Assembly (NCBI GenBank): GCA_903884455.1
Contig: CAISEW010000003.1
Location: 105,313-153,308 of the forward strand
Direction of reading: 5' to 3'
From: an uncultured Chloroflexota bacterium
Lineage (GTDB): Bacteria > Chloroflexota > Dehalococcoidia > GIF9 > AB-539-J10
DNA length: 47,996 bases
Shown in pieces: positions 7,443 to 46,204 of the stretch. The stretch's first letter is position 1. Every line of letters starts with the position of its first letter. Made by a program: the position numbers and the translations under genes. The notes below the pieces were generated by a model. The model was not told the DNA's origin and ran no database searches. It saw nothing but the letters and a program-made list of their open reading frames with translations.

Positions 7443-7444
7443 AG

Positions 7445-8029: not shown

Positions 8030-8059
8030 AGTATATTACCATTTTATCGCTTAGTTCAA
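8030..8059 (-). promoter_or_regulatory. Promoter for rsmD-coaD
   Basis: On the minus strand TTGAAC (8059-8054) and TATACT (8035-8030) are separated by 18 nt in an AT-rich stretch about 40 nt before rsmD. It is divergent from the clpC promoter. Confidence 0.55.
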
Positions 8060-8073
8060 GTAAGCTGAGCTTG

Positions 8074-8102
8074 TTGACTGAAAGGGTAGTATGTTCTATA
8101 CT
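8074..8102 (+). promoter_or_regulatory. Sigma70-type promoter of clpC
   Basis: TTGACT (8074-8079), a 17-nt spacer, TATACT (8097-8102). Transcription would begin near 8109, which excludes the upstream TTG codon at 8071 as the clpC start and supports ATG 8128. The same hexamers with the same spacing recur before the TackOD1 gene at 24.4 kb. No CtsR-type heptad repeat is visible. Confidence 0.75.
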
Positions 8103-8127
8103 TGTTAAAACTGCGAGTAGTATTAAA

Positions 8128-23234: not shown

Positions 23235-23310
23235 GGGGATATAGCTCAATTGGGAGAGCGCTGCGTTCGCATCGCAGAGGTCGGGGGTTCGAATCCCCCT
23301 ATCTCCACCA
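23235..23310 (+). tRNA. tRNA-Ala (CGC)
   Basis: GGGGATA pairs with TATCTCC; anticodon loop TTCGCAT gives CGC; T-arm GGGGGTTCGAATCCCCC is intact; CCA is encoded at 23308-23310. First of seven tRNAs. Confidence 0.96.
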
Positions 23311-23347
23311 TAAAACCCGGGAAAGACGAGGGTTGTGGTAATAGCGT

Positions 23348-23421
23348 GCCCCTGTAGCTCAGATGGATAGAGCAGCGGTTTCCTAAACCGCGTGTCGGGC
23401 GTTCGAGTCGCCCCAGGGGTA
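23348..23421 (+). tRNA. tRNA-Arg (CCT)
   Basis: Acceptor GCCCCTG with CAGGGGT (a G-T pair at 1-72); anticodon loop TTCCTAA gives CCT; T-arm GGGCGTTCGAGTCGCCC. CCA is not encoded. Confidence 0.95.
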
Positions 23422-23445
23422 TTTTTGATATAATTACGCTGATTT

Positions 23446-23523
23446 AGGGGCGTAGCTCAGTTTGGCTAGAGCAGCGGTCTCCAAAACCGCAGGTCGCGGG
23501 TTCGAGTCCTGCCGCCCCTGCCA
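23446..23523 (+). tRNA. tRNA-Trp (CCA)
   Basis: Acceptor AGGGGCG with CGCCCCT; anticodon loop CTCCAAA gives CCA; discriminator G; 3' CCA encoded at 23521-23523. The next tRNA begins two bases later, so the two must be cut from one precursor. Confidence 0.96.
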
Positions 23524-23524
23524 G

Positions 23525-23611
23525 GCCGAGGTGGTGGAATAGGCAGACACGCCATCTTGAGGGGGTGGTGGGCGCAAGCCCGTGGGAGTTCAAATCTCCC
23601 CCTCGGCACCA
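23525..23611 (+). tRNA. tRNA-Leu (GAG)
   Basis: Class II tRNA with a long variable arm (GTGGGCGCAAGCCCGT). Acceptor GCCGAGG with CCTCGGC; anticodon loop TTGAGGG gives GAG with stem CCATC/GGTGG (one G-T pair); CCA encoded. Confidence 0.94.
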
Positions 23612-23657
23612 GGATTTGCTTGCGGGAACTAAAAAAAGACGGTAAAATCTGTTTAGG

Positions 23658-23732
23658 GCGGAAGTAGTTCAGCGGTAGAATGCTTCCTTGCCAAGGAAGA
23701 GGTCGCGGGTTCGAATCCCGTCTTCCGCTCCA
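23658..23732 (+). tRNA. tRNA-Gly (GCC)
   Basis: Acceptor GCGGAAG with CTTCCGC; anticodon stem CTTCC/GGAAG with loop TTGCCAA gives GCC; discriminator T; CCA encoded. Confidence 0.96.
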
Positions 23733-23749
23733 GTAAATTTGGTAGTTGC

Positions 23750-23822
23750 GGCGGTGTAGCCAAGAGGTTAAGGCAGGGGTCTGCAAAACCCCGATGCGGC
23801 GGTTCGAATCCGCCCGCCGCCT
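23750..23822 (+). tRNA. tRNA-Cys (GCA)
   Basis: Acceptor GGCGGTG with CGCCGCC; anticodon stem GGGGT/ACCCC with loop CTGCAAA gives GCA; discriminator T. The next bases are CCT, so CCA is not encoded. Confidence 0.95.
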
Positions 23823-23843
23823 CCTTGAGTTGTCAACTATCAG

Positions 23844-23926
23844 GCCGAGGTGGCGGAATGGTAGACGCGGCGGACTTAAAATCCGCTTCCTGCAAGGGAG
23901 TGTGGGTTCGAGTCCCTCCCTCGGCA
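23844..23926 (+). tRNA. tRNA-Leu (TAA)
   Basis: Class II with variable arm after the anticodon stem GCGGA/TCCGC; loop CTTAAAA gives TAA; acceptor GCCGAGG with CCTCGGC, the same as the other tRNA-Leu. CCA is not encoded. Confidence 0.95.
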
Positions 23927-24439: not shown

Positions 24440-25801
24440 ATGACAGAAGTCAATAAGGCGGTAGAAGCAGCAAAAGACCCCCCAGTCGTAAGCGGCATGG
24501 TGGACAATGAGATAGCGATAAAATTGATAGCTGAAATGCTGGCGGGAAGGATTACTAATATTAAACCCCAGTATGATTTCACCACTGAGCTGGGCTTCAC
24601 CTATCCAGCCGTTGAACAAACACTAAAGGTCAAAGGCAAGGAAGCAGCAGCAATTATGGAATCCCTGGCTGCTAAGGGTATCGTGAACAAGAGTTTCTTC
24701 GATAGGTTCCTCCGTTGTCGCCGGTGCCAGTCAGTAAATTTAAGACCAAGCACCCACTGCCCTAAATGTAGCTCAGGACATATTGTCCGGGGCCGAATCC
24801 TCGAACACTTTGCCTGCAAGTATGTCGGCGTTGAAGACGAATTTACAGCCAAGGGTAGATACGTATGCCCCAGGTGTAAAATGGAGCTGCGGACTATAGG
24901 CGCCGACTACCGGAGCCAGGGAGTGCTATACAAGTGCCGTGATTGCAGCGAGATATTTAATGTGCCCTTTCTAAAGTGGCGCTGTCTGAAATGTTCCTCG
25001 CTTGCTAATGAGGATGAGGTTGACGAGGTAGTTATCTACGCGTATAGCTTTGATGAATCAAAGAGAAACTGGCTGGAATTTGAACTGCAGCCTAAAGTGC
25101 GGTTCGTTGAACTCTTGAGGCAGCACGGCTATAAAGTAACGGAAAATGCCAGAGTGAAGGGAAGGTCGGGGGCAGAACATTGCATGGATATACTGGCTAC
25201 CAGGGATGATGGCGTCGTTACCCATACTGTCGCTATCGGGATTGAGATTGCCAGGGATAGGATAGGACTGGACAGGGTACTGGATTTTGATGTCAAAGCC
25301 TACGATAGTGGCATTCACGATAAAATACTGCTTATCATCCCCGAGTTAGGCGAAGAGGCGAGGAAATTTGCCAGCTACCAGAGAATAAAGGTGCTGGAAC
25401 CCAAGGACCTGGAGCTAGTGCTGATAGGTAGTCCCCAGCCAGGCCGGGAAATAGTGAAGGAGCCATTTGAATTTAAGTCCAAATCACAGCTTATACAATA
25501 CCTGGAGAAACAGGGCTACATAGTAAAGGAACATGCTGAAGTCAAAGGCCGGTCCGGCGCTGCCCACAATATAGACATACTGGCTACCAACGATGAGGGC
25601 ATCATTACTCATCGTATTGCTATCGGCATCGAGGTGGATGAGAAGCCGATGGGACTGGACAGGGTATTTGACTTCGACGACAAGGCTTATGATACCGGTA
25701 TTATGGACAAGGTCTTTATTGCTGTTCCCGGGCTCACCAGGGAAGCCATGCAGTTTGCCAAGCGTCAGGGAATAAGGGTCCTTGCGGTCAGTAAACTGTA
25801 G
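24440..25801 (+). CDS. TackOD1-type zinc protein with two degenerate Mrr-like (PD-(D/E)XK) domains
   Basis: 453 residues. After an alpha-helical N-terminus (1-90), residues 90-200 carry five CxxC or CxxC-like knuckles (CRRC, CPKC, CPRC, CRDC, CLKC) in the layout of the thaumarchaeal output domain TackOD1, ending LKWRCLKCSS. Two tandem domains follow (about 222-330 and 352-453), each with GYxVxExAxVKGRSGAxH, DILA, IAIGIE, LDRV, FDxKAYDxGIxDK and an EAxxFAxxQxIxVL end. They resemble Mrr/restriction-endonuclease folds, but the usual E/QxK is IGIE, so catalysis is unlikely. The same domain, also twice, starts PilB at 45 kb. Role unknown; signal output or ligand binding is inferred. Confidence 0.78.
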   Translation: MTEVNKAVEAAKDPPVVSGMVDNEIAIKLIAEMLAGRITNIKPQYDFTTELGFTYPAVEQTLKVKGKEAAAIMESLAAKGIVNKSFFDRFLRCRRCQSVNLRPSTHCPKCSSGHIVRGRILEHFACKYVGVEDEFTAKGRYVCPRCKMELRTIGADYRSQGVLYKCRDCSEIFNVPFLKWRCLKCSSLANEDEVDEVVIYAYSFDESKRNWLEFELQPKVRFVELLRQHGYKVTENARVKGRSGAEHCMDILATRDDGVVTHTVAIGIEIARDRIGLDRVLDFDVKAYDSGIHDKILLIIPELGEEARKFASYQRIKVLEPKDLELVLIGSPQPGREIVKEPFEFKSKSQLIQYLEKQGYIVKEHAEVKGRSGAAHNIDILATNDEGIITHRIAIGIEVDEKPMGLDRVFDFDDKAYDTGIMDKVFIAVPGLTREAMQFAKRQGIRVLAVSKL

Positions 25802-26348: not shown

Positions 26349-26449
26349 TTACTGGAGCTAAACCCAGAAAAACCAAAGGAGGTGAAAGAAGCGCAGAGGA
26401 TAATATATCTATCAAATAGCTTACTGGAGCTAAATCCAGAAAAATCAAA
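26349..26449 (+). repeat. Direct repeat in the pilin leader
   Basis: TTACTGGAGCTAAAYCCAGA plus AAAAYCAAA occurs at 26349-26377 and 26421-26449, 72 nt apart, with two C/T differences. Similarity extends on both sides; each copy is followed by a GGAGGT-like site. The spacing is a multiple of three and both copies are open in the pilin frame, with the peptide LLELNPEK repeated. Confidence 0.8.
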
Positions 26450-26474
26450 AAATGGAGGTAAAAAGGAAAAAAGA

Positions 26475-26876
26475 ATGGAAAAATTTATGAAAATGATGCA
26501 CCGTGGAGAGAAGGGCTTCACCCTGATTGAACTGCTAATCGTGATTGCCATTCTGGGCATTATCGCCGCCGTGGTTATCCCCAACATCGCTGGCTTCTTG
26601 ATCTCGGGGCAAGTGGCGGCAGCCAACACCGAAGTGGAAAACGTCAAAACGGCGGAACTGGGTTACTTTGCTAACTATAATGTGTGGCCCGTTGATTCAA
26701 CCAACCTGACCGCGACCGGCTACATTTCAGGAGTCCTTAAGGCTGTCTACACGTTCGACACGAGCTATGGGTGGGCAACAAATGCGACTCCTACTGTTGG
26801 AGGTTGGAGCGGAATCGTGTTTACTGGGAGCGTTCCAGGTGCCTCAGGGCAGCACGGGCATTGGGCGAAAGCATAA
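26475..26876 (+). CDS. pilA: Type IV major pilin (class III signal)
   Basis: 133 residues. The leader ends at the prepilin peptidase site in HRGEKG|FTLIELLIV (Glu at +5), and the hydrophobic helix LIELLIVIAILGIIAAVVIPNIAGFL follows, then a small Ser/Thr/Gly-rich head domain. Start ATG 26475 is preferred because of AAGG about 8 nt upstream; the frame is open farther up to 26325. No prepilin peptidase gene is in the window. It stands on the opposite strand from the other pilus genes, with its own promoter and terminator, as expected for the most abundant pilus protein. Confidence 0.92.
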   Translation: MEKFMKMMHRGEKGFTLIELLIVIAILGIIAAVVIPNIAGFLISGQVAAANTEVENVKTAELGYFANYNVWPVDSTNLTATGYISGVLKAVYTFDTSYGWATNATPTVGGWSGIVFTGSVPGASGQHGHWAKA

Positions 26877-28302: not shown

Positions 28303-29382
28303 TTATGAGCTTGACTGTAGTTTTACGTTGCCGACGAGTTTTTCCACTTCCTGGCGGTCATTGCAGAAATCAAGCACGGTTTTGCCAGTGATGATGCTCT
28401 TAAGATAGAGGCTGACCAGGGCTTCGTCAAGCGAAATCATGCCCATTTCCCGGTGGGTACGGATGACATTAGGTAACTGGTAGATTTTGCCTTCACGAAT
28501 GAGGCTCTTCACTGCTGGATTGCCAAGCATAATTTCTACGGCGGCTACCCTCCCTGAGCCATCAGCCCGGGGCACGAGCACCTGACACAACGCAGCAACA
28601 AGTAGCGAAGCCAGCCGTGTCTGAGCCAGGTGGCGCTGATGAGGTGGGAACAGATCTATTATCCTCTCCATTGCCTGAGTAGCGCTGGGGGCATGGCCGG
28701 TAGTTAATATAAAGTGCCCGGTCTCAGCTACGGTAAGGACAGCGTCGGCAGTCTCCGGATCTCTCATTTCCCCGACCAGAATCACATCCGGGTCCTGCCT
28801 TAAGATATGCTTTAGAGCATTGTCAAAGGATAGGGTATCAGAGCCCAACTGACGCTGGGTCACAGAACACTTAATGCTAGGGTAAACATATTCTATGGGG
28901 TCTTCAATAGTAACCACATGACGGGTCTCATGAGTATTCAAGTGCTGAATCATAGCTGCCAGGGTGGTAGTTTTACCACTGCCGGTAGGTCCAGTAATTA
29001 CTACCAGTCCTCTGGGTTTCATGGCCAGCTCTTTACATATCTGGGGCAGCTCCAGTTCATCTATGGTGGGGATTTTTGGTGGCAGCAAGCGCACGGCCAG
29101 GCTGATAGACCCGCGCTGCTGAGCGGCATTGCATCTCAGACGACCGACATCAGGTAAGGTATAGCCAAAATCAAGCTCCAGCTGGCGGTGGTAGTATTCT
29201 CTCTCCTCAGGCGTGGTTAGCTGGAGAAAAGCTTCATTTATATCCTCAGAAGTTAGTGCAGCTACACCGTTTGCTGATTCCAGGGAGCCGTCGATGCGGA
29301 ACGCTGCCGGGCTGCCAGCAACCATATGCAAATCGCTCGCCCTCCTTGACTTACCTACCCGAAGCAGTGCAAAAATATCCAT
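28303..29382 (-). CDS. pilT: Type IV pilus retraction ATPase PilT
   Basis: 359 residues. N-terminal PAS-like domain with ASDLHMVAGSPAAFRIDG, Walker A GPTGSGKTTT, the Asp box TIEDPIEYVYP, Walker B DPDVILVGEMRDPETA and the His box with HFILTTGHAPSA. It powers pilus retraction (twitching, DNA uptake). AAGG is 8 nt before ATG 29382. It is the last of the minus-strand pilus genes. Confidence 0.95.
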   Translation of the reverse strand: MDIFALLRVGKSRRASDLHMVAGSPAAFRIDGSLESANGVAALTSEDINEAFLQLTTPEEREYYHRQLELDFGYTLPDVGRLRCNAAQQRGSISLAVRLLPPKIPTIDELELPQICKELAMKPRGLVVITGPTGSGKTTTLAAMIQHLNTHETRHVVTIEDPIEYVYPSIKCSVTQRQLGSDTLSFDNALKHILRQDPDVILVGEMRDPETADAVLTVAETGHFILTTGHAPSATQAMERIIDLFPPHQRHLAQTRLASLLVAALCQVLVPRADGSGRVAAVEIMLGNPAVKSLIREGKIYQLPNVIRTHREMGMISLDEALVSLYLKSIITGKTVLDFCNDRQEVEKLVGNVKLQSSS

Positions 29383-29788: not shown

Positions 29789-31327
29789 TTACCTTATCAA
29801 GAGAAAGCGAACCAGCGCGATGATGGCCACCGCTATTGCAGTTATGATAGCAATGAATCCCCATAGGGGTAGGAGTCCGGCTCGGAAGGAACGGGCCGCG
29901 GTCCAGGCGCCTGCATTCTCTGCGCCATCCACGGCTTGCACAATCCAGTAGTAGGTGCCATAAGGCAGGGCTCTTGTCTCCTCCAGGGTATAGTTCGTTC
30001 CGACTATGCCCGCAACCGAAACTATGGGGTCAACGAATCCTCCAGTGGCGGTGACGTCAGTACTGGCTGCTATTTGCAGGCTATAGCGAACTCCACTGTC
30101 ATCGGATACTGCTGACCATTCAAATGTTGGCGTCACCCTGCCCACAAGCCCCACCATGCTTCCGTGGGATGGTGAAATGAGCATTGGTGTGTCCGGAGGG
30201 TCTGATTCCATGGTGAAGGTGGCAGTGGCATCGGTTCCCGCAGCATCCTCGGCTGCTACCTCGCGCTCGCCATATTGGCTCTCGGGCACGACAAAACTTG
30301 TCACAAAGCTGCCTTTGCCGTTGGTCCTGGCTGTCGCTACCTGGCTACCATCGTACTTTATGACCACATCTCTGTTGGCGGCAAATCCACGGCCAGTGGC
30401 GGTCAAGTCTATGCCCACGTATCCTCCTTCAAGAGACAACACGATGCCAGGCTCTATCTTGAAGTTGAGTGCGCTGACGTCTTCTTTCATGGTCTGCTCT
30501 CCCTCGGCGGTGACGCTATATGGGCCTGCGGGCACCTCGGGCACCTCGAAGCTCCCCTCCCAGTCACCTTGAGAATCGGCTTTGATGCCCGTGACTATTG
30601 CCTCTCCATGAAACAATATCTGAATGCCACTCTCGTAGGCCGCAAATCTGCTGCCTGTCATTGTTATGCTTTCGCCCACAATGCCCGATGATTTATCTAC
30701 GCTTATCTCCGCCGTTATTTTAAAGATGGCATCTTCGACATCGTATAGCTTACTCTCAGCACCCTGGGCGTCTAGCTTGTGTTCTCCCCTGGTAGACGTG
30801 GGAATTGAGAAACTCGTTTTCCAACTGCCCTTGTCATTCGCTGTGATATTCCCTTCTATCGTTTTGTAGTTGCCATCGAGGTAATACCTCAGTTCGATGC
30901 CTGTTTCATTCTGGGCAAAGCCCTGTCCTTTCACGGTAACATTAGTGCCCACAGGACCTTCTTCGGGATTTACCATCAACCTCGGCTTCACGGTAAAGTA
31001 GGTATCCATTTCAACAGTCCCTATGGAGGTTCCTACCACAGCGAGCACTTTATGGTCTCCCTTACAGCCTTCGGGAATGGTGATGGTGATTGCGAAATTT
31101 CCGTTGATATCGGTACTGCCTGTGGCTATGCTGGTCCCATCATAATAGATGTCAACATATGCGTTCTCATGAAAATATTGACCATTGACGGCGATATTTA
31201 TTCCGGGGACTCCCGAGGTGGAGGAGAGCTCAATAGAAGGACACAAGGCTTGTGCAGGCACAACCGGCAGGGCAATGGCGATGAAGCAGACGACAAGAAC
31301 GATGGCCAGTTTTAGCAGCAATTTCAT
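29789..31327 (-). CDS. Secreted or membrane-anchored protein with IPT/TIG-like repeats
   Basis: 512 residues: Sec signal peptide (LLKLAIVLVVCFIAIALPVVPAQA), four IPT/TIG-like immunoglobulin repeats (each with GxxGxxxTxxGxxF, a YDG-type strand and GSW or GSF), a domain with PDTPMLISPSHG and FEWSAVSDDSGVRYSLQI resembling fibronectin-like modules, and a C-terminal helix (LPLWGFIAIITAIAVAIIALVRFLL) ending in Arg. It should be displayed outside the membrane. Its place between pilMN and pilT suggests an adhesin or pilus-associated surface function, but that is inference. Confidence 0.8.
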   Translation of the reverse strand: MKLLLKLAIVLVVCFIAIALPVVPAQALCPSIELSSTSGVPGINIAVNGQYFHENAYVDIYYDGTSIATGSTDINGNFAITITIPEGCKGDHKVLAVVGTSIGTVEMDTYFTVKPRLMVNPEEGPVGTNVTVKGQGFAQNETGIELRYYLDGNYKTIEGNITANDKGSWKTSFSIPTSTRGEHKLDAQGAESKLYDVEDAIFKITAEISVDKSSGIVGESITMTGSRFAAYESGIQILFHGEAIVTGIKADSQGDWEGSFEVPEVPAGPYSVTAEGEQTMKEDVSALNFKIEPGIVLSLEGGYVGIDLTATGRGFAANRDVVIKYDGSQVATARTNGKGSFVTSFVVPESQYGEREVAAEDAAGTDATATFTMESDPPDTPMLISPSHGSMVGLVGRVTPTFEWSAVSDDSGVRYSLQIAASTDVTATGGFVDPIVSVAGIVGTNYTLEETRALPYGTYYWIVQAVDGAENAGAWTAARSFRAGLLPLWGFIAIITAIAVAIIALVRFLLIR

Positions 31328-31458: not shown

Positions 31459-32886
31459 TTATTTTGTTAAGGAGAACGTAAAACTAAACTCGCCTTCACC
31501 ACCGCTGATGGAGGAAATCCAGACTTGCGAAAATCTCCCGCTCGCCCTTAAATCTCGAGCATAACTAAAAATGCCATCATTTGAACCCACCCCGTTCACA
31601 GTTACTGAGCTGCCCCCATCATTGACATTGCTCAAGGTTACCTTATCTGCCGCCAGGCTTACAATCTGGGTCAAGTCGTCGTAAAACGTGGCCCGCCGCT
31701 CTTCCATAGTAGTAATTCTGCTATCAAGCTCACTGGCAGTAGCTTCTAGCGACCCAACCTGTGCACCCAATGCCGCTACTTCACTCTGCTTTTGGGTAAC
31801 ACTGTTCTGAGCAAGTACCAGGTTGGAACGCAATGTCCCAGTCTGAGCGCGATTATACTGGACAAAAATTACTCCGAAGATAATCAGCCCGATACCAATG
31901 ACAATACCCACGGGGACAAGGACTCGTGCTATAGAGAAACCCGGGGGCACATAGACCTCAGGCAGGACATTGAGATTCACTGATGAAAAGTTAGCTCCTG
32001 CCTTTTCTGTCAGTAGTTCCTTGAGAGCCAGCCCGATATTGACCAAGAATTCGTTGGGGTTGAAGCCCTCGGGGAGTTTCACAGGTGAGGGCAACGGTGA
32101 CACCACATAGCCGCCTGTCTGGCTACCCACTAATTGCCAGGCCTCCGGTGCTTCTGCCAGGTCGCCGCAGACAAACACAGGTACAGTTGCATCTAAAGGC
32201 TTTTCCATGTGGCTGGAATTATAAAAGGCCACAGTCCTCTTGAACTCTTCAGCGATAAGCGGCAGCCTTTCCTCTAAAGATTCAGCCTCGCCGGGCAGGG
32301 ATAACCTGCGGATGACCTGGGGGAGCCTGTCTGCTATAACCATAATATCCAGGTGCTCTAACCGGGCATTTACGATGATTGCTCTGGGCTCATTCGGGAT
32401 TCGGCACAGGGCTAAAGGAGCTAAGTCCAGAATATATGGCCTGACACCGGCCTGATGTAGCGTTCTGACCAGAGCATCAACCAGATTACGGGGGAAGGTG
32501 ACCAGGAAAACACGACCTTCTCCTCTCGGGGCAGGAAGGCGCTGATATGAAAAGTAAACTTCTTCTAAAGGCGTTGGTATCGTTCTCCTTGCCTCGCGCT
32601 TTATTGCCTCAGGCATTATAGCTTCAGGCAGTTCGGGCAGGGTTATGATACGATACAGAGAATCATGTCCGCTTAAAGCAGTGATAACCTTGTTTGCCTT
32701 TGCTCCCGTCTCTTTAAATAGCTGTTTAACCCTGTCGGCTACCTGGGCCTCATCAACAATGAGCCCCTGGCTAACCAGACCGGGCTCCAGTGGTAAACTA
32801 GCCCACTTTTCTACCTGTTCGCCCTTCATTACCAGCAGGTTAACGCTGGTATCTCTGATAAATAAAGTGGTAACTTTTTTCGCCAT
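31459..32886 (-). CDS. Fused PilM-PilN-type pilus assembly protein
   Basis: 475 residues. The first ~300 are a PilM/FtsA-like actin fold: LFIRDTSVNLLVMKGEQVEKW, SGHDSLYRIITLPELP, EAIKREARRTIPTPLEEVYF, and the truncated second half. Then comes one membrane helix (VLVPVGIVIGIGLIIFGVIFVQY, about 325-347), a coiled coil (NSVTQKQSEVAALGAQVGSLEATASEL) and a small C-terminal domain as in PilN. In most bacteria these are two genes; here one polypeptide spans cytoplasm and exterior, as in GspL. SD AAAGG; 6 nt after the PilO-like stop. Confidence 0.82.
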   Translation of the reverse strand: MAKKVTTLFIRDTSVNLLVMKGEQVEKWASLPLEPGLVSQGLIVDEAQVADRVKQLFKETGAKANKVITALSGHDSLYRIITLPELPEAIMPEAIKREARRTIPTPLEEVYFSYQRLPAPRGEGRVFLVTFPRNLVDALVRTLHQAGVRPYILDLAPLALCRIPNEPRAIIVNARLEHLDIMVIADRLPQVIRRLSLPGEAESLEERLPLIAEEFKRTVAFYNSSHMEKPLDATVPVFVCGDLAEAPEAWQLVGSQTGGYVVSPLPSPVKLPEGFNPNEFLVNIGLALKELLTEKAGANFSSVNLNVLPEVYVPPGFSIARVLVPVGIVIGIGLIIFGVIFVQYNRAQTGTLRSNLVLAQNSVTQKQSEVAALGAQVGSLEATASELDSRITTMEERRATFYDDLTQIVSLAADKVTLSNVNDGGSSVTVNGVGSNDGIFSYARDLRASGRFSQVWISSISGGEGEFSFTFSLTK

Positions 32887-33654: not shown

Positions 33655-36240
33655 TCATCCAATAATCTTTATCGCGTAATTTGTTATGACACCGCCCGGC
33701 CCCAGCTCGCTGCGAAACTGGAGAAGCATATATGACATGGTAAAGCCATCGGTTCCAGTGGGAACGTTTATCTGAGCCGAGACATCCATTGGCTTCAAGA
33801 TTTGGCTAGCCCAGGTGACAAAGAACTGGTCTATATCTATCCCTGCGTCGGTCGGCAGGCTAATCGAGTTGCCGTTCCAGACGTCGGGTAATACCGTACC
33901 ATCGGGTAGCGCGACGCCATTCACTTTGAAGCGGTCCTTACAGTAGCAGTTGCCAGAGGAGCCGTCGGCTTTGTCCCCCTCACCCACCATAACGGTGATT
34001 CGCGCAGCATTCGTTTCGCCCGGGGTTTGTGGCGGCACCAGAAAGCCGCTGACGGTGCCGCCGGCGTTGCCGTCATTATCCCAGTCGGGATCCGTAAGTG
34101 GACAGCTCGAGCCCCCGTTCCAGCCGAAGAAGAAATGAAAACCCGCGGTGTCGATATCGTAGAGATAAAACTGATGATTGTACACCGAAGCGCAGTGGTA
34201 GAGGATTAACAGCGACCAGCCGGCATGCGCGGCGGTGTACCGTGTGGCCGGGTTCGAGCTCGGTGCCGGAGTGCCCAGAGGGTAGCCGGTGGAGCCACCG
34301 CCCGTAGCAAAGCTGAATAAATAGGTCGGGTCTGCCTGATTAGGCGCTGCCACATGGCCGAGGGTATAGGTGCCGGCGCCGTTGGAGGCGATGGTGCCGT
34401 TGCCTATCCACGCCTCCAGCAGGTTGGTAACATCAGCCTTGCACGTGTAGTACCATGTCCCTTCATATCCTGTGCCAGGGAACGCGTCGGGGTACAGGGT
34501 CTGCCAGTCGTGCGTCGTGACGAGGGTGTCAGTGCTGCTGCCACCCTTGAAATATACTTTGTTGACGCGAGAGGTATTCTCAACCAGGACTTGCAGGTCT
34601 GCCTGCGTGGGAGCATTTGGGTACTTTAAGGTGGAACCCCAAGCTGCTACGGCATAGACCTGAGTCAGCCTGATGGTCGGAGAGGCATCGTTAGAAGAAA
34701 CTCCGAAACTTTGCAACGCATTAGACCCGACGCCGTTTATATCATCTTTCGTCCACGCACTATTTGTTCTGGGGTTCGTCGTCCAGGTATAGCTGATGGT
34801 GCCATAGCTGGACGGCACTTCAGTGTATGTGCCGTAATAATCGTTTCCACCTACCTTAATCCACGGCCGCATAGTGTTGGTTCCGGAGCTAGAGTCCCTT
34901 GCCACCAGAGATACCGTCAGGCTTTTTATTACCTCGCCAGTTGGCACGTTAACGTTGAAAGCCGGGAAGCTAAACAGGGCAGAACCACTGGTTGTGCCAT
35001 GCAACAAGTAGGTAGTATCACCATCATGCGCACCCACTTCGTCCACATAGCTGTACATATTCGTGGTCTTGTCCCATGTCCCGCTGCGAGAGATATCACC
35101 CGACGGGTAGCGAGTCTGGCTTCCGGAGTTTGGTGGGTTATAGGTGTTCCAGTCTATCCAGCCCGTCCAGTAGAGGTAAGCGGCGTCAATCGTGGCGTCT
35201 GACGGGATGCCCAGGGTATCATCAACATCGTTGGTGGCGATTGTGGCTGGGGTGGACCTGTAAAGCAGGTAATGGATGTTATCCGGAGGATTCTCCATGC
35301 CTCCGATGAGGCTGTTGCCGGTGCCATAGTAATCGCCTGATACGGCAGACTTGAGTTTGCGGAACTTGGTTTTGCCACCATAGGCATCAATCCGGATTCC
35401 GCCGGCTACCGACACAATCTTATAAAGCCGGATAGTGTCATCCCAGCTATAATGATAAGTAGTACCGGGAACCCCCGTGGTATCAACCCAGGAAGCCACA
35501 AGCTCGGGAATCTGCCCCTGCGGTCCCGTGTATTTGAAGGTGAATATTTTCACCAGCGGGTTGCCAGAACTACCACCGGTAAACTGACTAAGAAGAGGCG
35601 GAGAGGTAAAGTTCCAGACCACAGCACAGCCGCCGTTACTGATGGAAATAGTCGGGGCGCGGTACCATGTTTGGCCCTGAAGGCTGCAACTGCCGCTATA
35701 TTCGGTATACTCGAAGCCGGAGGACAGCCATACCCCTAGCGTCTTTACAGTCAGGGCATTCGAGCCCTGCCAGTAATAAACTATCTTGACGTCGTATGTG
35801 GAGGCGGCGGCGTCAGGATAGCCGATTATCATCAGCTTCTCATCACCAATAATTTGTTGCGCTGTTGTAGAATTTGGGGCAGATATACTCGTGGGAAGCC
35901 AGAAATTATGAATAGTAACAGTCACATTTTTGCCGTTTACAAATAATTTATACGGATAGGTATAGTTGGAAAAAAAGTCATACTGGTTATAGCCGACACT
36001 GCTGAGTAAGTCATCCATGGTGTCATACCTTATGCGCCACATGGCATCCTCAACACCGGCATCGGCGGCATAAATCTCACAATCCTTCTGTTCATAGACT
36101 CGACCAGTTGCAATGCCGGTGCGCATAAAACTCAGAGTGGGCGTGACGATAAGCGTGCCTATAAGGAGCAGGAGCAGGGTAAGGATCAGTGCCTGCCCCT
36201 TTTCATCTCTTGCTAATCTTTTCACGGCAATTTTCCTCAC
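33655..36240 (-). CDS. Large PilX-like pilus protein with adhesin-type ectodomain
   Basis: 861 residues. The N-terminus DEKGQALILTLLLLLIGTLIVTPTLSF is a PilX/GspK-like membrane helix preceded by a possible prepilin-type site (EKG|QALIL). A very large Ser/Thr/Gly/Tyr-rich exterior part follows; near 640-780 the run AAHAGWSLLILYHCASVYNH, a VSGFLVPP segment and VMVGEGDKADGSS resemble DUF3344-type adhesin modules. Minor pilins are usually below 250 residues, so this one is unusual. The gene looks more GC-rich than its neighbours. Start GTG 36240 is weakly supported. It may present a binding tip on the pilus (inference). Confidence 0.75.
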   Translation of the reverse strand: MRKIAVKRLARDEKGQALILTLLLLLIGTLIVTPTLSFMRTGIATGRVYEQKDCEIYAADAGVEDAMWRIRYDTMDDLLSSVGYNQYDFFSNYTYPYKLFVNGKNVTVTIHNFWLPTSISAPNSTTAQQIIGDEKLMIIGYPDAAASTYDVKIVYYWQGSNALTVKTLGVWLSSGFEYTEYSGSCSLQGQTWYRAPTISISNGGCAVVWNFTSPPLLSQFTGGSSGNPLVKIFTFKYTGPQGQIPELVASWVDTTGVPGTTYHYSWDDTIRLYKIVSVAGGIRIDAYGGKTKFRKLKSAVSGDYYGTGNSLIGGMENPPDNIHYLLYRSTPATIATNDVDDTLGIPSDATIDAAYLYWTGWIDWNTYNPPNSGSQTRYPSGDISRSGTWDKTTNMYSYVDEVGAHDGDTTYLLHGTTSGSALFSFPAFNVNVPTGEVIKSLTVSLVARDSSSGTNTMRPWIKVGGNDYYGTYTEVPSSYGTISYTWTTNPRTNSAWTKDDINGVGSNALQSFGVSSNDASPTIRLTQVYAVAAWGSTLKYPNAPTQADLQVLVENTSRVNKVYFKGGSSTDTLVTTHDWQTLYPDAFPGTGYEGTWYYTCKADVTNLLEAWIGNGTIASNGAGTYTLGHVAAPNQADPTYLFSFATGGGSTGYPLGTPAPSSNPATRYTAAHAGWSLLILYHCASVYNHQFYLYDIDTAGFHFFFGWNGGSSCPLTDPDWDNDGNAGGTVSGFLVPPQTPGETNAARITVMVGEGDKADGSSGNCYCKDRFKVNGVALPDGTVLPDVWNGNSISLPTDAGIDIDQFFVTWASQILKPMDVSAQINVPTGTDGFTMSYMLLQFRSELGPGGVITNYAIKIIG

Positions 36241-39924: not shown

Positions 39925-40818
39925 TTATGAGACTGGTTTGGGCACAACTATATATGTCCTCGTTTCATTCTCTTGTTGCTGACCGGCGCCTGCTGTGGCT
40001 GTTACCGTGAGGATAAGCCCATTAGCGCTACTGAGCGTAGCAGGATTTGCACCGCTATCTACGGTTATGGCAGCAGTGGCAGCCTTAGTTTCGGACGTCC
40101 AGCTACCTTTTGTGTTAGAACTAGTGGCAGTAACTGTAATAGTGTCCCCAGTGGTGTTTGTTGTCCAGGTATAGCCGCCCGTAACTGAGACATAGGTAGC
40201 GTTGCCAGTTTTGGTGAGCGAGACGCTGCCACTAACAATTATGCTGCCGCTGTCAGATGTCGCCCCACCGGTAATCTTGAACGCATCACCAACATCAGGC
40301 AAGCTAAAGGCACTGCCACCACTAATTTGACAATTAGTTTTAGTTGTGTTGGAAATAAACGCAAACACAGGAATCTTACCAGTTTTCACTGAATTAAAGA
40401 CATCATTGACATAATAACTCCCCCTGAGACCAGAGCTAGTCAGGTTAAACACAACTTTCTGCTTTTGACTCGTGTCAAAATCGATCCAGCACATGATAAG
40501 GGGGAAACCTGAAACTCCAGTTATCGTCGTGTTTTGAGCCGAGTAGTCATAGAAGCTAACCCAATAGCCAGCCTCCTGCACTTGCCTGACAACAGCCATA
40601 TGGTGAGAGCTACGGCTACTCCCGGTAAATATCTGGGAAATAACCATGGTAACAGCTGCGGCGATAAGACCGACAATAGCGATACCTACCATTAGCTCAA
40701 GTATAGTAAAACCCTTCTGGCCTTTCTTTAGCTTTTTCATCTTCATTTGTTTAAGATTCAGCCGCGACCCTACAGAAATTCCCAATCTCAAGCTCCCATT
40801 TATAATTTGGGATTTCAT
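39925..40818 (-). CDS. PilW-like minor prepilin
   Basis: 297 residues from ATG 40818, or about 271 to 273 if ATG 40746 or 40740 is used. Prepilin site GQKG|FTILELMVGIAIVGLIAAAVTMVISQIF, then a large beta-rich domain with many Ser/Thr/Gly. The first 24 codons look like family D filler sequence, so the inner start is attractive, but the ribosome site (GAGGT) fits the outer one. It follows the PilV-like gene by 24 nt. Confidence 0.85.
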   Translation of the reverse strand: MKSQIINGSLRLGISVGSRLNLKQMKMKKLKKGQKGFTILELMVGIAIVGLIAAAVTMVISQIFTGSSRSSHHMAVVRQVQEAGYWVSFYDYSAQNTTITGVSGFPLIMCWIDFDTSQKQKVVFNLTSSGLRGSYYVNDVFNSVKTGKIPVFAFISNTTKTNCQISGGSAFSLPDVGDAFKITGGATSDSGSIIVSGSVSLTKTGNATYVSVTGGYTWTTNTTGDTITVTATSSNTKGSWTSETKAATAAITVDSGANPATLSSANGLILTVTATAGAGQQQENETRTYIVVPKPVS

Positions 40819-40842
40819 TTCTGACCTCTCTATACCCCTCCG

Positions 40843-41382
40843 TCATCGGTTTACCTTATAGGCCTCCAATGTGATGTTGGCGCCGTTAGCCCAGTAAGGA
40901 TTTGTGTTAACAAAGGTATATATTATCTTATCCTGGTTGGCCGGATCCTTGTGCTTAATCACCAGCGCTATCTTCTGAAGTCCATCATCCTTGCCTGCTG
41001 GCTTATTATTTTGGCTATCCCAGGGTATACCCACTATATTCGCACTAATTACAATAGTACTGCTGTTGCTCGCAACGCTCCAAATCGAGTAACCCTGAGG
41101 GATGTTGCCAATTTTTTGATAGGTGGGTAGTGTCAGCAACGACCCAGTGCTGTTATAACCCTGACCTTTGATATACTCCATCTGCATTCTGGCCAGGCTT
41201 TCGGCAGTGGTTCGCTCATCGGCAAGAGAGACAGTCTTCGAGGTAGTAGATAGGGCGCCTAAAATGGCGACAACAACTATCCCAATAAGGGCTATGGCTA
41301 TCAGTGCCTCAATCAGAACGAAGCCCCGGGAGCTGCCTGGAAAAGCTCTCCTTACTTTACTACTCAGTCTTACCCTTTTCAT
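40843..41382 (-). CDS. PilV-like minor prepilin
   Basis: 179 residues from ATG 41382 (GGGGA upstream). The longer open frame to 41523 is rejected because it translates a family A repeat. Prepilin site SSRG|FVLIEALIAIALIGIVVVAILGAL, then KTVSLADERTTAESLARMQMEYIKGQGY, typical for PilV/GspI-like minor pilins. Same strand as pilC and pilB. Confidence 0.86.
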   Translation of the reverse strand: MKRVRLSSKVRRAFPGSSRGFVLIEALIAIALIGIVVVAILGALSTTSKTVSLADERTTAESLARMQMEYIKGQGYNSTGSLLTLPTYQKIGNIPQGYSIWSVASNSSTIVISANIVGIPWDSQNNKPAGKDDGLQKIALVIKHKDPANQDKIIYTFVNTNPYWANGANITLEAYKVNR

Positions 41383-41402
41383 TTCCCCGCATTTCCCCAT
41401 AC

Positions 41403-41516
41403 TGTCATTGCGAGCACCCGTAGGGTGCGTGGCAATCTCCTGTCTCCTCACCCAGATTGCTTCGGCTGTCTTCGCCAGCCTCGCGATGACAAGGGAAGAA
41501 GGCTTCTCGCAATGAC
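41403..41516. repeat. Family A element between pilC and the PilV-like gene
   Basis: TGTCATTGCGAG, arm GCACCCGTAGGGTGCG, GGCAATCTCC, AGATTGCTTCG, arm GGCTGTCTTCGCCAGCC, TCGCGATGACA (41403-41491), plus an extra right end CTTCTCGCAATGAC to 41516. It lies within the putative pilus operon. Confidence 0.82.
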
Positions 41517-41597
41517 GAAGCAAAGGCTAAAATTTTTGCATTTTGATTTGTCATTTTGATTTTTGTATTTTCTATTCTCCCCATTGGTAACCCTCAC

Positions 41598-42812
41598 TTA
41601 GAGATTTACCTGATGATAGACAGAATACATAGCTGATATCATGGCTAAAACAACAAAACCAACCACTAAACCCATAATTATCGTCGTCACTGGCTGAATA
41701 AGCGCCACAGCGGAGTTGGTCTTGTCATTAGCCTCGACCTCAAAGCTTTCGGCTACAGTAGCCAGTGTGTTCTCGAGGTTACCGGTTTCCTCACCAACTT
41801 TCACCATTTGCGTCATCAAAGGCAAGAAGAGGCTCCTCTTTTCCATAGGTTTGGACAAGCCTTCGCCTCTGATCAATTCCTGCTGAACTCCGGCCAGACT
41901 CTCAACTACAATCGTATTGGTAATACTGTGAATGGTTACGGCCAGGACTTCTGGGAGAGGTAAGCCAACTCTGATTAACAATGCCATAGTCCGGCAGCAC
42001 TGAGAAAGCGCACTAAGTTGGATAATACGCCCGACTACAGGAAAACGAAGCATCATTTTGTCCCAGCGGTATTTCCCGGCTGGGGTCCTGCTGTAGAAAT
42101 AAATTGCGCCAACAACAACTAAAAGCCCAAGCAAAAGATAAAACCCATAATGTTGAAGCCCCCCAACAATGCCTAGAAGGATTCTGGTGGCCGTAGGTAA
42201 CGTAGCCCCGAGTTGAGAGTAGAAGCTGACAAAGGTGGGAAAAACTTTGGTGACCAATATCGCCACCACAACAATAGCTACCACAACCACCATAATGGGG
42301 TACATCAGGGCACCTTTTATCCTCTTCTGAGTGACGCTTCCCTTCTCTATATAATCGGCCATTTGCCTCAGCACCACCTCCAGGTTACCACCTTGCTCAC
42401 CGGCAGCTATTGCCCGGTAGTACATTGAAGAGAAAGCCTGAGGGTGTTTGCTTAAAGCCATTGACAGCGAACTACCACCACGAATATCCGCGGCTACCTC
42501 ACCGATCATTTTCTGCAAGTTTTGATTAGTTACCTGGCCTTTTAATAAGTCTAAAGAAGTAACAATATCGGTGCCAGATTCCAGTAGTAAAGCTAGCTGG
42601 CGGGAAAACATGATTATTTCTGCCTGCTTTATCCGAGAAAAGCGGGCTTGCAGTTTTTCTTTATCAAACCAGGGACGAACTAACTTAAGGCTGAGCGCCC
42701 GATAGCCGCCATAGCTCAACAGTTCGGTTGCTGCCTCTTCACTGGTAGCCGAAACCTTGCCACTAATTAACTTTTTACCTTCTTCAGCATAAGCGACATA
42801 ACTAAAATCCAT
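41598..42812 (-). CDS. pilC: Type IV pilus platform protein PilC
   Basis: 404 residues with two T2SSF domains. FSRQLALLLESGTDIVTSLDLL and the GEQGGNLEVVLRQMADYIEKG motif mark the first, CCRTMALLIRVGLPLPEVL and KVGEETGNLENTLATVAE the second; three membrane helices, the last near the C-terminus. It is the membrane platform on which PilB works. GGAGGT precedes ATG 42812; it begins 17 nt after the pilB stop. Confidence 0.95.
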   Translation of the reverse strand: MDFSYVAYAEEGKKLISGKVSATSEEAATELLSYGGYRALSLKLVRPWFDKEKLQARFSRIKQAEIIMFSRQLALLLESGTDIVTSLDLLKGQVTNQNLQKMIGEVAADIRGGSSLSMALSKHPQAFSSMYYRAIAAGEQGGNLEVVLRQMADYIEKGSVTQKRIKGALMYPIMVVVVAIVVVAILVTKVFPTFVSFYSQLGATLPTATRILLGIVGGLQHYGFYLLLGLLVVVGAIYFYSRTPAGKYRWDKMMLRFPVVGRIIQLSALSQCCRTMALLIRVGLPLPEVLAVTIHSITNTIVVESLAGVQQELIRGEGLSKPMEKRSLFLPLMTQMVKVGEETGNLENTLATVAESFEVEANDKTNSAVALIQPVTTIIMGLVVGFVVLAMISAMYSVYHQVNL

Positions 42813-42829: not shown

Positions 42830-45127
42830 CTAAGTTATAACATAGGCATTGCGCAGTACCTCAGAAGGGGTGGTAATACCTTCCTTTACCTTGCGCATAC
42901 CATCGTTCCCCATAGATATCATACCCTCTTTAAGTGCCTGAGCCCGAATATCAGTACTGCTGGCTCGATCACTGACCAGCGTTCTTATCGAGTCGCTCAT
43001 AGTTAGAATTTCAAAGATTCCCGTACGCCCCAGGTAACCGGTATAGGTGCAGGACTTACAGCCGGTACCATAGAGAAACTTGGTTTGCTTCTCCCCCATT
43101 TCCTTTTCATAAGCCATTTGCTCGACCAAGGGGGCTTCCATAAGGTGACTGCAATCGGGGCAGATACGGCGTACCATCCGCTGAGCGACAACACCAATAA
43201 CCGCTGAGGCTATCAAGAAAGGCTCTATCTTCAGGTCAAGGAGACGGGAGAGCACACCGGCAACTTCATTGGCATGGATAGAAGACAGCATCAGGTGCCC
43301 GGTTAAGGCTGCCTGGACAGCTATGCTAGCTGTCTCGGCATCGCGTATCTCACCAACCAATATGACATCAGGGTCAAGACGAAGTATAGACCTCAAGCCA
43401 CTGGCAAAGGTAATGCCCGCCTGGTTATTGACCTGAATCTGGTTAATATCCTTGAAGCGGTATTCAGCAGGGTCTTCAATGGTAATGATGTTGCTCCCCT
43501 GAGTATCAAGGGAACTTATTGAGGCATATAAAGTGGTAGTTTTGCCAGCTCCAGTAGGACCGCTAATCAGAATCATACCATAGGGAACTTTGAGCATACT
43601 GTCATACTTTGCCAGGCTATCAGGGAGCATACCAAGCTGTGCTAACCCCAGAGTAGCCATTGACTTATCCAGAAGCCGCAGGGTGGCTGTCTCGCCCCAG
43701 ACAGTAGGAGCGGTGGCAACTCTGACATCTATCTCTCGCCCTTTAGCTTCGGTAGAGAATTGACCATCTTGAGGACGAAAATGGTCAGCAATATTCATTT
43801 CAGCCAGGATTTTAATTCGTGAAATGAGTGCTCGATGTATAGTTGAAGGTAGAGACATCGTATCTTGAAGAATGCCATCTATACGGTAGCGTATTCGTAA
43901 TCTATCTTCTTCTGGTTCAATATGAATGTCAGATGCGCGGGCTTTGACTGCCTCATCAATTAAAAGGTTGAGAGCCTGAACCAGTGGGGTATCAGTAGCA
44001 ATACTAATGGCAAGCTTCTCATCAGTTTCTCCAGCCGGGATAGAGATGCTAGAAACATGCTTTTCAATTTCGCTATAGGCTTTATAATTGAAGTCAAGAG
44101 CGTCCCTGATTTCCTCGACAGTGGCAGCTACAGGCTTAATCCTCATTCGAGTCTGGGCGACAAGAGCCTCTAAGGCAAAGATATCGGTCGGGTCTGCCAT
44201 GGCCACTTCCAGTGTCTTACCCGATATAGTCAGGGGTATGGCATTGTATCTCCTCGCTAGCGCCTCGGGAATCAATTGTAATGCCTCAGGTTGGGGTGTC
44301 TGCCTTAGTAGCTTGGCGTGAACCTTATCTATCTTAACTGGCTTCTCTGCTCCCCGGACAGGCAACTCTTCAGTCACAAGTTTAGGAACTGGTTTTTGAC
44401 CCAACTTAAGGACTTTTATCTGCTGGTGCTGGGCAAATTGCTGTGCCTCGGGGCTAAGCCCCACTGACACCACAATGACTTTCTCATCAACGCCAACCTC
44501 ATAGGCTTTAGTATCAAATAACATTACCTGTTCCAGGCTCACTTCTTTATCCCCATTCAGGAAATCTACACCCAGCCTATGCTCAACCTGACCGTTTTCA
44601 TCATGAGCCAGTATATCAAAGGTATATTCAATCCCGGACCGACCTTTAACTTTGGCTTTCTCTTTTATTCCATAGCCCCGGTTGGCTAAAGATTTGACCA
44701 GTTCCTCTTTTGTCTCAAACCTAACCGGCTCCTCGGGCTTAGCTGCCTTCGCGGGTTTCAAGGTTAATAGTTGCCCAATTTGTTCTCCATCAATAACCTT
44801 TATTCGCTGCTTGCGAGCCAGCTGTTTTGCCTCTTCACTAAGATCAGGGATGGCAATAAGAATCCTGTCCAGGATACCGCAATCATAGGCTTTATTGGCA
44901 AGGCTGAAAATAGTGCCCACTTCTATCTCCCTATCGCCACCAGCAGCAATGCCGATAGCAATAGTGTAGCTCGTGAAACCATCGTTTCTTTGAGCCAGCA
45001 TATCAAAGGTATGCTCAATTCCTGAGTTCCCGAGGTGCTTAGCTCCCTCGGTTACTGCATACCCCTGCTGCTCCAGATACTCTCTAATCTGTGTCCTTAG
45101 CTCCAAACCGATTTTCGTCTGACGCAT
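42830..45127 (-). CDS. pilB: Type IV pilus extension ATPase PilB with two N-terminal Mrr-like domains
   Basis: 765 residues from ATG 45127 (GGAG 7 nt upstream; a TTG at 45157 is less likely). Residues 10-245 are two degenerate Mrr/PD-(D/E)XK-like domains (GYAVTEGAKHLGNSGIEH and GYGIKEKAKVKGRSGIEY, each followed by D-[MI]-LA, a KAY helix and an EAxQxA helix). Next come an MshEN-type domain (KLLRQTPQPEALQLIPEALA), RASDIHIEPEEDRLRIRYR, Walker A GPTGAGKTT near 522, TIEDPAEY, DPDVILVGEIRDAETA, and the zinc site CPDC/CKSC. PilB normally has MshEN domains and no nuclease-like ones. It drives pilus growth with PilC; the added domains may sense a ligand (inference). Confidence 0.93.
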   Translation of the reverse strand: MRQTKIGLELRTQIREYLEQQGYAVTEGAKHLGNSGIEHTFDMLAQRNDGFTSYTIAIGIAAGGDREIEVGTIFSLANKAYDCGILDRILIAIPDLSEEAKQLARKQRIKVIDGEQIGQLLTLKPAKAAKPEEPVRFETKEELVKSLANRGYGIKEKAKVKGRSGIEYTFDILAHDENGQVEHRLGVDFLNGDKEVSLEQVMLFDTKAYEVGVDEKVIVVSVGLSPEAQQFAQHQQIKVLKLGQKPVPKLVTEELPVRGAEKPVKIDKVHAKLLRQTPQPEALQLIPEALARRYNAIPLTISGKTLEVAMADPTDIFALEALVAQTRMRIKPVAATVEEIRDALDFNYKAYSEIEKHVSSISIPAGETDEKLAISIATDTPLVQALNLLIDEAVKARASDIHIEPEEDRLRIRYRIDGILQDTMSLPSTIHRALISRIKILAEMNIADHFRPQDGQFSTEAKGREIDVRVATAPTVWGETATLRLLDKSMATLGLAQLGMLPDSLAKYDSMLKVPYGMILISGPTGAGKTTTLYASISSLDTQGSNIITIEDPAEYRFKDINQIQVNNQAGITFASGLRSILRLDPDVILVGEIRDAETASIAVQAALTGHLMLSSIHANEVAGVLSRLLDLKIEPFLIASAVIGVVAQRMVRRICPDCSHLMEAPLVEQMAYEKEMGEKQTKFLYGTGCKSCTYTGYLGRTGIFEILTMSDSIRTLVSDRASSTDIRAQALKEGMISMGNDGMRKVKEGITTPSEVLRNAYVIT

Positions 45128-45499
45128 CTCCCACTCCGTTTTTTGCAATTCAGGCAAAGTGTAATTCGCCTATTGGCTCGAGTCAAGATTGTTAACCATG
45201 TCTTAACCCAAGCTAATCAGGGCGTAATAATCTACCTTTCCCATAACCTAGATACAATTTAGCACATCTCATCAGTTTGTCAATAGAACTTTTGGGGGAG
45301 TCCCTCCCAGTCAGTAGTCAGAAGTCAGAAGTCAGTAGTCAGTAGCCACTAGGGGAATCTTCTGAATGCTGGATTCTGACTACTGGCTACTAATTTGGAG
45401 ATTTGGTGCTTGGGATTTATCCCTTTGTAAGGGGGTGTCGCGCAATGACTTTTACACCACTATTTCTGCGAATTACTATAATTGCCTGTAAAGCGGCAG
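45128..45499. other. Intergenic region with family C repeat
   Basis: 372 nt between pilB and the LuxR-family regulator. 45309-45392 is a family C repeat whose two ends are reverse complements (AGTCAGTAGCC and GGCTACT); a family D scrap (TTTGGTGCTTGGGATT) follows. The part nearest pilB should hold its promoter; AT-rich sequence near 45230-45285 is suitable but no clear hexamer pair was settled. Confidence 0.6.
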
Positions 45500-46204
45500 T
45501 TAAATCTCATCAAAATCTTCTGATACTCTTCGTGGTTTTGCTTCTGGCGAAATCCAGCCGCTGTGCAGGGCGAGAGTAACAGCATGAGCTCTATCATTAG
45601 CATTTAGCTTACGAAGGATAGCGCTGACATGATTCTTAATTGTCTGCTCGCTGATTGACAGGATACGGGCGATCTCTTTATTGGAGTTGCCCTCAGCAAC
45701 GTAGGTTAGAATCTGCGTTTCCCTTTTGGTAAGAGGAGCGGCTATGCCCTCCATAGTTCTCGTAAAACCGCGAAATTGGTTTAATACTTGCTTGGCAACC
45801 TTGGGTCTAGTCATCAAGCTTTCATTTATGGGGTATTCACCACTGTGGGCTCGTCTTATGATGTTAGTTAGCTCGTCGGCACTGGCTTTCTTACTCACGC
45901 AGGCTACGGCTGCAGTCTTAATTACTTCAAAAAGCTCTTCATCATTAGGGTCAGGGCTTAGCACTATTACCTTAGTATTTGGATAGTATTGGGCAATTTT
46001 TCTACCCAGCTCAATCCCGCTGAGGCTAGCCAGGTCAGAGCCAAGTAAAGCAACATCAGGGAGATTAGCTTCAATTAGCTCGAGTGCGTTCTGAGTTGAG
46101 TCGCATTCGAATACCTCCAGGTCGGGTTGTCGAGACAGTGCCTGACGCACCCCAGCTCTAAAAAGTGCTTGCTCATCAATTATCATAACTTTGATCTTAT
46201 CCAT
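45500..46204 (-). CDS. LuxR/NarL-family response regulator lacking the phosphorylation aspartate
   Basis: 234 residues. Receiver domain 1-120 with the acidic pair D10-E11, S83 and K105, but the phosphoacceptor position reads LLGSD: Gly55 replaces Asp, with an Asp two residues on (D57). The C-terminal HTH has LTKRETQILTYVAEGNSNKEIARILSISEQTIKNHVSAILRKLNANDR. It likely acts without classical phosphorylation. No kinase gene is nearby. AGGAGGTG precedes ATG 46204. It lies upstream of pilB on the same strand, so it may control the pilus genes (inference). Confidence 0.9.
   Translation of the reverse strand: MDKIKVMIIDEQALFRAGVRQALSRQPDLEVFECDSTQNALELIEANLPDVALLGSDLASLSGIELGRKIAQYYPNTKVIVLSPDPNDEELFEVIKTAAVACVSKKASADELTNIIRRAHSGEYPINESLMTRPKVAKQVLNQFRGFTRTMEGIAAPLTKRETQILTYVAEGNSNKEIARILSISEQTIKNHVSAILRKLNANDRAHAVTLALHSGWISPEAKPRRVSEDFDEI

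Follow-up and report, generated by a model that had tools for sequence, protein, structure and literature searches.

Two probably inactivated nuclease-like domains at the PilB N-terminus of many Dehalococcoidia, shared with TackOD1 proteins, point to an undescribed control of pilus building

The N-terminus of the pilus extension ATPase PilB is the region where both c-di-GMP and the PilZ and FimX proteins act, and the way in which it controls the motor has yet to be settled (PMC11656802). In MshE, PilB and PilF, the N-terminal position is held by MshEN, a c-di-GMP receptor, and residues 1-64 of MshE constitute the c-di-GMP-binding subdomain (PMC5013675). PilZ and FimX are effectors known to dock on the PilB N-terminus (PMC11656802), and their complexes (in the case of PilZ, with the PilB N1D) exemplify control of PilB by a regulatory protein through that region (PMC8389850, PMC11656802). 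A different output domain, TackOD1 (PF18551, arCOG06883), is known from archaea: it is a zinc-ribbon-like domain that stands alone or follows a receiver domain (REC), and proteins carrying it are encoded in thaumarchaeal type IV pilus loci (PMC5847659, PMC4858521).

Here, we describe a pilus locus in a 47,996-nucleotide stretch of DNA (the window) from an uncultured bacterium of the Chloroflexota, whose genome is 1.56 Mb in size and 99.5% complete and whose relatives in the searched collection are Dehalococcoidia. Its PilB retains the MshEN_C half of MshEN but lacks MshEN_N with its two RLGxx motifs, and another fold stands in its place. Unlike the PilZ and FimX complexes, the locus offers a candidate regulator with no PilZ or EAL domain; this candidate, a TackOD1 protein, instead has the same putative docking domain as PilB itself. 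Compared by description with the archaeal TackOD1 proteins, those reported here differ in having two or three apparently dead Mrr domains after TackOD1 and in adjoining pilB or a glycosyltransferase gene, while Mrr domains form no part of the archaeal accounts in the portions available (PMC5847659, PMC4858521). An open-access literature search returned no description of this PilB/TackOD1 dead-nuclease pair. In many Dehalococcoidia, the combination of a PilB bearing two inactivated nuclease-like domains with the absence of its c-di-GMP part points to a way of controlling pilus building that has not been described.

Architecture of PilB and of the TackOD1 protein

The window encodes a PilB/GspE-type extension ATPase, recognized by a T2SSE domain with a Walker A motif and by the pilC, prepilin, pilM and pilT genes of its locus. 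It scores 507 bits against TIGR02538, below the equivalog cut-off of 676, which is reached by no genome searched, and the window's genome has just one T2SSE match besides it, a PilT-type ATPase. All gene starts are predicted; PilB has 775 aa from a TTG at 45157 and 765 aa from an ATG at 45127. From N- to C-terminus (on the minus strand), it consists of D1, D2, MshEN_C and T2SSE. The features of the locus are as follows.

24440..25801, plus strand: TackOD1-D1-D2 protein, 453 aa (predicted model pLDDT 86.8)
24506..25048, plus strand: TackOD1 domain, residues 23-203, Cys-rich, predicted to bind zinc (PF18551 138 bits, cut-off 32)
25076..25435, plus strand: D1 of the TackOD1 protein, predicted Mrr-type PD-(D/E)XK domain, residues 213-332, motif III IGIE (49% identity to PilB D1, E 2.5e-24; predicted model against 1y88, Z 14.1)
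25478..25792, plus strand: D2 of the TackOD1 protein, predicted Mrr-type PD-(D/E)XK domain, residues 347-451, motif III IGIE (Mrr_cat 27.7 bits; 42% identity to PilB D1)
26382..26876, plus strand: major-pilin-like gene adjoining the TackOD1 gene (N_methyl 38.2 bits)
28303..29382, minus strand: PilT-type ATPase (T2SSE 146.7 bits)
31459..32886, minus strand: PilM/PilN-like protein (PilM_2 59.7 bits, PilN weak)
39925..41523, minus strand: two prepilin genes, at 39925-40818 (N_methyl above cut-off) and 40843-41523 (N_methyl weak)
41598..42812, minus strand: pilC (T2SSF E 2.5e-53)
42830..45157, minus strand: PilB/GspE-type pilus extension ATPase (T2SSE 421 bits; Walker A GPTGAGKTT; followed directly by pilC)
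42851..43996, minus strand: T2SSE ATPase core of PilB, residues 388-769 (PF00437 E 3.9e-126)
44090..44311, minus strand: MshEN_C subdomain of PilB, residues 283-356 (PF05157 64 bits; aligns only to residues 65-145 of MshE, 5htl, Z 13.1)
44402..44713, minus strand: D2 of PilB, predicted Mrr-type PD-(D/E)XK domain, residues 149-252, degenerate motif III GVD (Mrr_cat 21.6 bits; predicted model against NucS/EndoMS and RPB5, Z 9-11)
44759..45100, minus strand: D1 of PilB, predicted Mrr-type PD-(D/E)XK domain, residues 20-133, degenerate motif III IGIA (Mrr_cat above cut-off; predicted model against 1y88, Z 13.7 over 113 residues)
45500..46204, minus strand: LuxR-type response regulator gene immediately preceding pilB (above cut-off for both Response_reg and GerE)

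An earlier reading of the sequence only had proposed two Mrr/PD-(D/E)XK-like domains at the PilB N-terminus and the same domain twice in the TackOD1 protein, and profile searches bore out both proposals. Against Mrr_cat (PF04471, gathering cut-off 21), the two proteins scored 39.5 and 42.9 bits and single segments 21.6-28.0 bits, all above the cut-off, with the domains at residues ~20-133 and ~149-252 of PilB (numbered from the TTG, where the earlier reading had begun at the ATG) and ~213-332 and ~347-451 of the TackOD1 protein. A search of the whole genome with PilB D1 returned both TackOD1-protein copies (49% identity, E 2.5e-24; 42%, E 1.9e-21) and PilB D2 (36%, E 2.3e-16), with no match beyond these three. 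As the search returned exactly the other three domains, at E values of ~1e-16 to 1e-24, the kinship of the four is far beyond chance. The NACHT-associated inactive REase family (PF22722, NA-iREase1) likewise uses an inactive REase fold as an accessory domain, but the match to its profile is weak (25.7 bits, below the cut-off of 27), which places the domains outside the family, and the PilB and TackOD1 proteins contain no STAND/NACHT ATPase. Searching the PDB by phmmer with D2 gave weak unrelated matches only, and our search for viral relatives found none. The TackOD1 domain matches its profile with CxxC motifs, and 11/22 invariant Cys positions of the Cys-rich-family alignment lie within residues 93-185.

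The same reading had noted that PilB proteins usually begin with MshEN domains but missed that MshEN_C is kept here, after the pair. PilB residues 280-358 match MshE (5htl) from MshE residue 65 on (Z 13.1, 38% identity), and the TIGR02538 match begins at position 66; MshEN_N, with its two RLGxx...LxxxLxxQ motifs, is absent.

Three other elements of the window lie in or near the locus: a predicted 861-aa protein with no Pfam match (33655-36240, within the pilus locus), a protein of 512 aa whose Ig-like domains include TIG (29789-31327, between pilT and the PilM/PilN gene) and seven clustered tRNA genes (23235-23926, adjoining the TackOD1 gene).

Predicted fold and degenerate active site

AlphaFold2 models were built on shallow alignments, one of 31 PilB N-termini (pLDDT 78, pTM 0.56) and one of 22 TackOD1 proteins (pLDDT 86.8, pTM 0.67), and relative domain placement is unreliable at such pTM values. 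Each domain was modelled as alpha-beta-beta-beta-alpha-beta. The closest solved structure was AF1548 (1y88), matched by PilB D1 at Z 13.7 (113 residues) and by D1 of the TackOD1 protein at Z 14.1 (114 residues), followed by NucS/EndoMS, the Can2/Card1 nuclease domains and RPB5 at Z 8-11. D1 and D2 are thus predicted to have a PD-(D/E)XK fold of the Mrr type, in agreement with the sequence-only reading. The domains resemble AF1548 and the Mrr_cat restriction endonucleases in profile score and predicted fold, and differ from them in the loss of the (E/Q)xK pair throughout, in their tandem arrangement and in their fusion to PilB or TackOD1. The RPB5 N-terminal domain, a non-nuclease use of the fold, is matched in structure by the predicted fold (Z ~9) but belongs to an RNA polymerase subunit. 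Among the matches listed for the TackOD1 protein, which the two Mrr-like domains fill, the TackOD1 domain itself had no clear fold match.

In the window, motif III reads AIGIA in PilB D1 and AIGIE in both TackOD1-protein copies, as first noted from the sequence (IGIA or IGIE), but LGVD in PilB D2. In the aligned domains, the E/Q position is mainly C, G or D in PilB D1, D in 48/49 PilB D2 and mostly G in the TackOD1 copies, and at the K position A, I, L and E predominate, Lys being confined to some TackOD1 copies. The proposed loss of the (E/Q)xK catalytic pair proved general: none of 172 aligned homologous domains had both E/Q and K, the combination that marks an active Mrr-type endonuclease. 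With (E/Q)xK absent from all 172, the PilB/TackOD1 Mrr domains are likely to be catalytically dead, to judge by their motifs. Two further Mrr_cat matches in the same genome read QVK (a DNA methyltransferase fusion) and SCK, which indicates that the loss is specific to the PilB/TackOD1 domain family. The intact QVK sequence is found elsewhere in the window's genome, in a DNA methyltransferase fused to Mrr_cat (G000:C31:90554-90823).

Other positions are conserved. Motif II retains its Asp in 41/48 PilB D1, 45/49 PilB D2, 32/32 TackOD1 D1 and 30/32 TackOD1 D2, a GxSG loop is conserved across the aligned domains, and the Lys of FDxKAYD is near-universal in the same four sets (42/48, 47/49, 28/32 and 31/32). 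Together with the Asp of motif II and that at the E/Q position of PilB D2, this Lys could in principle serve an active nuclease with a relocated catalytic lysine. We consider that very improbable, given the Gly in motif III of most TackOD1 copies, the mixed residues there in PilB D1, the loss of the motif II Asp from 7/48 PilB D1 and 4/49 PilB D2 and the lack of an evident use for a nuclease on a pilus motor.

A dead fold might still bind DNA, RNA or a nucleotide (for example, DNA under uptake) and inform PilB of it, as the sequence-only reading had suggested. The nuclease origin of the fold and the conserved motif II Asp and GxSG loop speak for such a sensor, as does the uptake of DNA by some type IV pili (PMC11656802). 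However, all four domain sets are acidic, with a median net charge of -2 to -4 and a median pI of 5.1-5.9, and PilB D2 is positively charged in 0/49 sequences; no ligand site was found, and the module also precedes a glycosyltransferase operon, which has no obvious link to DNA. The suggestion thus gained no support, and we regard it as unlikely.

Spread, loss of MshEN_N and fusion history

The pair was found in 48/294 genomes of the class Dehalococcoidia, in class samples that are not exhaustive and include many draft MAGs, where absence of a gene is weak evidence. A 400-genome Chloroflexota sample gave no match outside this class, and neither did the 63 loci from a scan of 84,980 species, which used short peptide patterns and may miss distant relatives. 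Within these searches, the pair is therefore confined to Dehalococcoidia. Its architectures among 88 distinct proteins are PilB or TackOD1 only, save two truncated fragments, and nearly all TackOD1 matches above cut-off in the class run straight into the pair, the exception being a short frame in G200. The f14 genomes (mostly single contigs of 1.4-2.1 Mb, ~99% complete) have the PilB form. Copy number varies: one PilB (L057) has four copies of the domain, and one REC-TackOD1 protein (L095) has three.

The PilB form occurs in 39 genomes of the class sample, the TackOD1 form in 22 and both in 13, so we rejected an obligate couple: the two do not always co-occur. As 26/39 genomes with a pair-bearing PilB are without TackOD1, PilB appears independent of a TackOD1 partner. 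Where both proteins were on one contig, in the cases examined, 2-19 kb separated them, and they lay within or next to the pilus locus.

A closer association was seen in sister families of the window's lineage. In four genomes (G061, G165, G229 and G122), the pilus operon opens with the TackOD1-D1-D2 gene, which ends 27, 24, 9 and 22 bp, respectively, before a short pilB, in the order TackOD1-D1-D2, short pilB, pilC, prepilins, pilMN and pilT. The short PilBs of these genomes have 519-526 aa and are without the pair; G267 and G316 have the same short PilB, with a TackOD1-D1-D2 match ~90 bp away. In all six, the short PilB starts at TIGR02538 position ~50-55.

Loss of MshEN_N accompanies the pair without exception in the class sample. 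Of 115 PilBs, the 44 associated with the pair (38 in cis and 6 next door) all lack MshEN_N, with TIGR02538 matches that start at position 37 at the least, whereas 50/71 other PilBs have full MshEN and 21/71 lack MshEN_N (Fisher p 5e-16, a value that ignores shared ancestry). These 21 have neither pair nor TackOD1. We rejected the idea that the c-di-GMP system was lost and MshEN_N thereby made useless: GGDEF proteins were present in 61/68 genomes tested, among them nearly all pair-bearing ones, and the window's genome has two. Because GGDEF proteins persist in this way, the pair does not simply stand in for a c-di-GMP system that has disappeared. GGDEF proteins of ~1,000 aa are encoded ~6-13 kb from pair-bearing pilB in several genomes (G041:C11:68596, G024:C54:68476 and 73952, G028:C32:18545, G023:C39:11135 and G018:C18:22772). 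Direct replacement of MshEN_N by the pair was also weakened as an explanation by two short, pairless PilBs that fall outside the pair-bearing clade and make an earlier loss of MshEN_N probable.

We then compared trees of the PilB core and of the domains (the latter on ~112 columns), all unrooted. In the PilB core tree, a single clade without MshEN_N (100/97) contains all pair-bearing and all TackOD1-adjacent PilBs, and the TackOD1-adjacent short forms fall into one subclade, joined by the fused form of G196. In the domain tree, PilB D2 clusters with D2 from precisely those TackOD1 copies that adjoin pilB (100/95; 99/93 in a repeat), and PilB D1 clusters with D1 from these copies at moderate support (87/86; 83/86 in a repeat). 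An origin of the PilB pair from the window's own TackOD1 protein was rejected, as that copy belongs to another TackOD1 lineage and the nearest relatives are the pilB-adjacent copies of sister families. The plainest history would be loss of MshEN_N, then TackOD1-D1-D2 beside pilB, then fusion of D1-D2 to PilB and finally later losses; because the trees are unrooted, the direction of the fusion is one that we infer. Three PilBs within the pair-bearing clade have lost the pair (L190 in G138, L186 in G241 and L187 in G263), and that of G138 keeps a degraded N-terminal D2 remnant. Between the TackOD1 gene and the fused pilB of G196 (L168, G196:C7, ~7289-9051) are three mutually similar short genes of 141-146 aa that look Roadblock/LC7-like by eye.

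The pair might instead be a structural extension that stands in for MshEN_N, anchoring PilB to the PilM stator or widening the ring without any signal. It occupies the position of N1D, which is thought to contact PilM (PMC11656802), and the losses in G138, G241 and G263 show that PilB persists when the pair is lost or degraded. Yet some short PilBs lack both MshEN_N and the pair, and a structural role leaves the pair on receiver-domain TackOD1 proteins and before glycosyltransferases unexplained. We think this explanation quite improbable.

A shared module in cis and in trans

The view that a shared module links pilus extension to TackOD1 was upheld, and the operon and tree evidence makes this link much stronger. 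We favor, with a probability of roughly 60%, a model in which the pair is a tandem dead Mrr-type PD-(D/E)XK docking or regulatory module that an output protein shares with its effector and that PilB acquired through gene fusion. The strongest argument is the switch between cis and trans, since the presence of a pair in a neighbor in some genomes and within PilB in others usually marks a physical or functional partnership. In this model, the D1-D2 tail would have originated in a TackOD1 output protein encoded directly upstream of a pilB already without MshEN_N, and fusion or duplication of the gene would have placed it at the PilB N-terminus. The TackOD1 protein would, in sister lineages, use this tail to act in trans on the PilB encoded in its own operon. 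In the lineage of the window, where the tail belongs to PilB, contact between domains may allow a second TackOD1-D1-D2 protein of the pilus locus, one that evolves separately, to dock on it. TackOD1 (predicted to bind zinc), or a response-regulator receiver domain where present, would sense an input that alters the ATPase activity of PilB or its docking at the pilus base. Across an entire clade, the c-di-GMP half is gone and a fold unrelated to it has come in, and the naturally occurring cis and trans versions are directly comparable. TackOD1, an output domain also present in archaeal pilus loci, thereby gets its first likely targets, and the nuclease fold gains a clear added case of reuse without catalysis.

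The module also has a second setting. In seven loci (L095 and L228-L233, from G267, G316, G262, G321, G303 and G165), TackOD1-D1-D2 lies directly upstream of a membrane glycosyltransferase 2 gene, usually followed by a sugar-nucleotide epimerase gene, and has an N-terminal REC wherever the start of the frame is complete. From this position of REC-TackOD1-D1-D2, the module appears to accompany a second kind of membrane machine. Tentatively, and with the balance somewhat against it, one might propose a previously undescribed output system in which TackOD1 proteins, often response regulators, would use the dead-nuclease tail to dock on and control machines of the membrane, both the pilus extension ATPase and membrane glycosyltransferases, with the tail in PilB as a built-in receiver; as part of the same tentative proposal, its two kinds of target would be those that MshEN controls elsewhere via c-di-GMP. 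The targets of MshEN-type control include PilB-type ATPases and the glycosyltransferase NfrB (PMC5013675), and the NfrB model NF008411 weakly matches the MshEN_C part of the window's PilB. We take the targets apparently common to the MshEN and TackOD1 modules as a parallel rather than as evidence of mechanism. In one of the glycosyltransferase loci (L229), genes for a histidine kinase and an OmpR-type response regulator are found just upstream of the TackOD1-D1-D2 gene.
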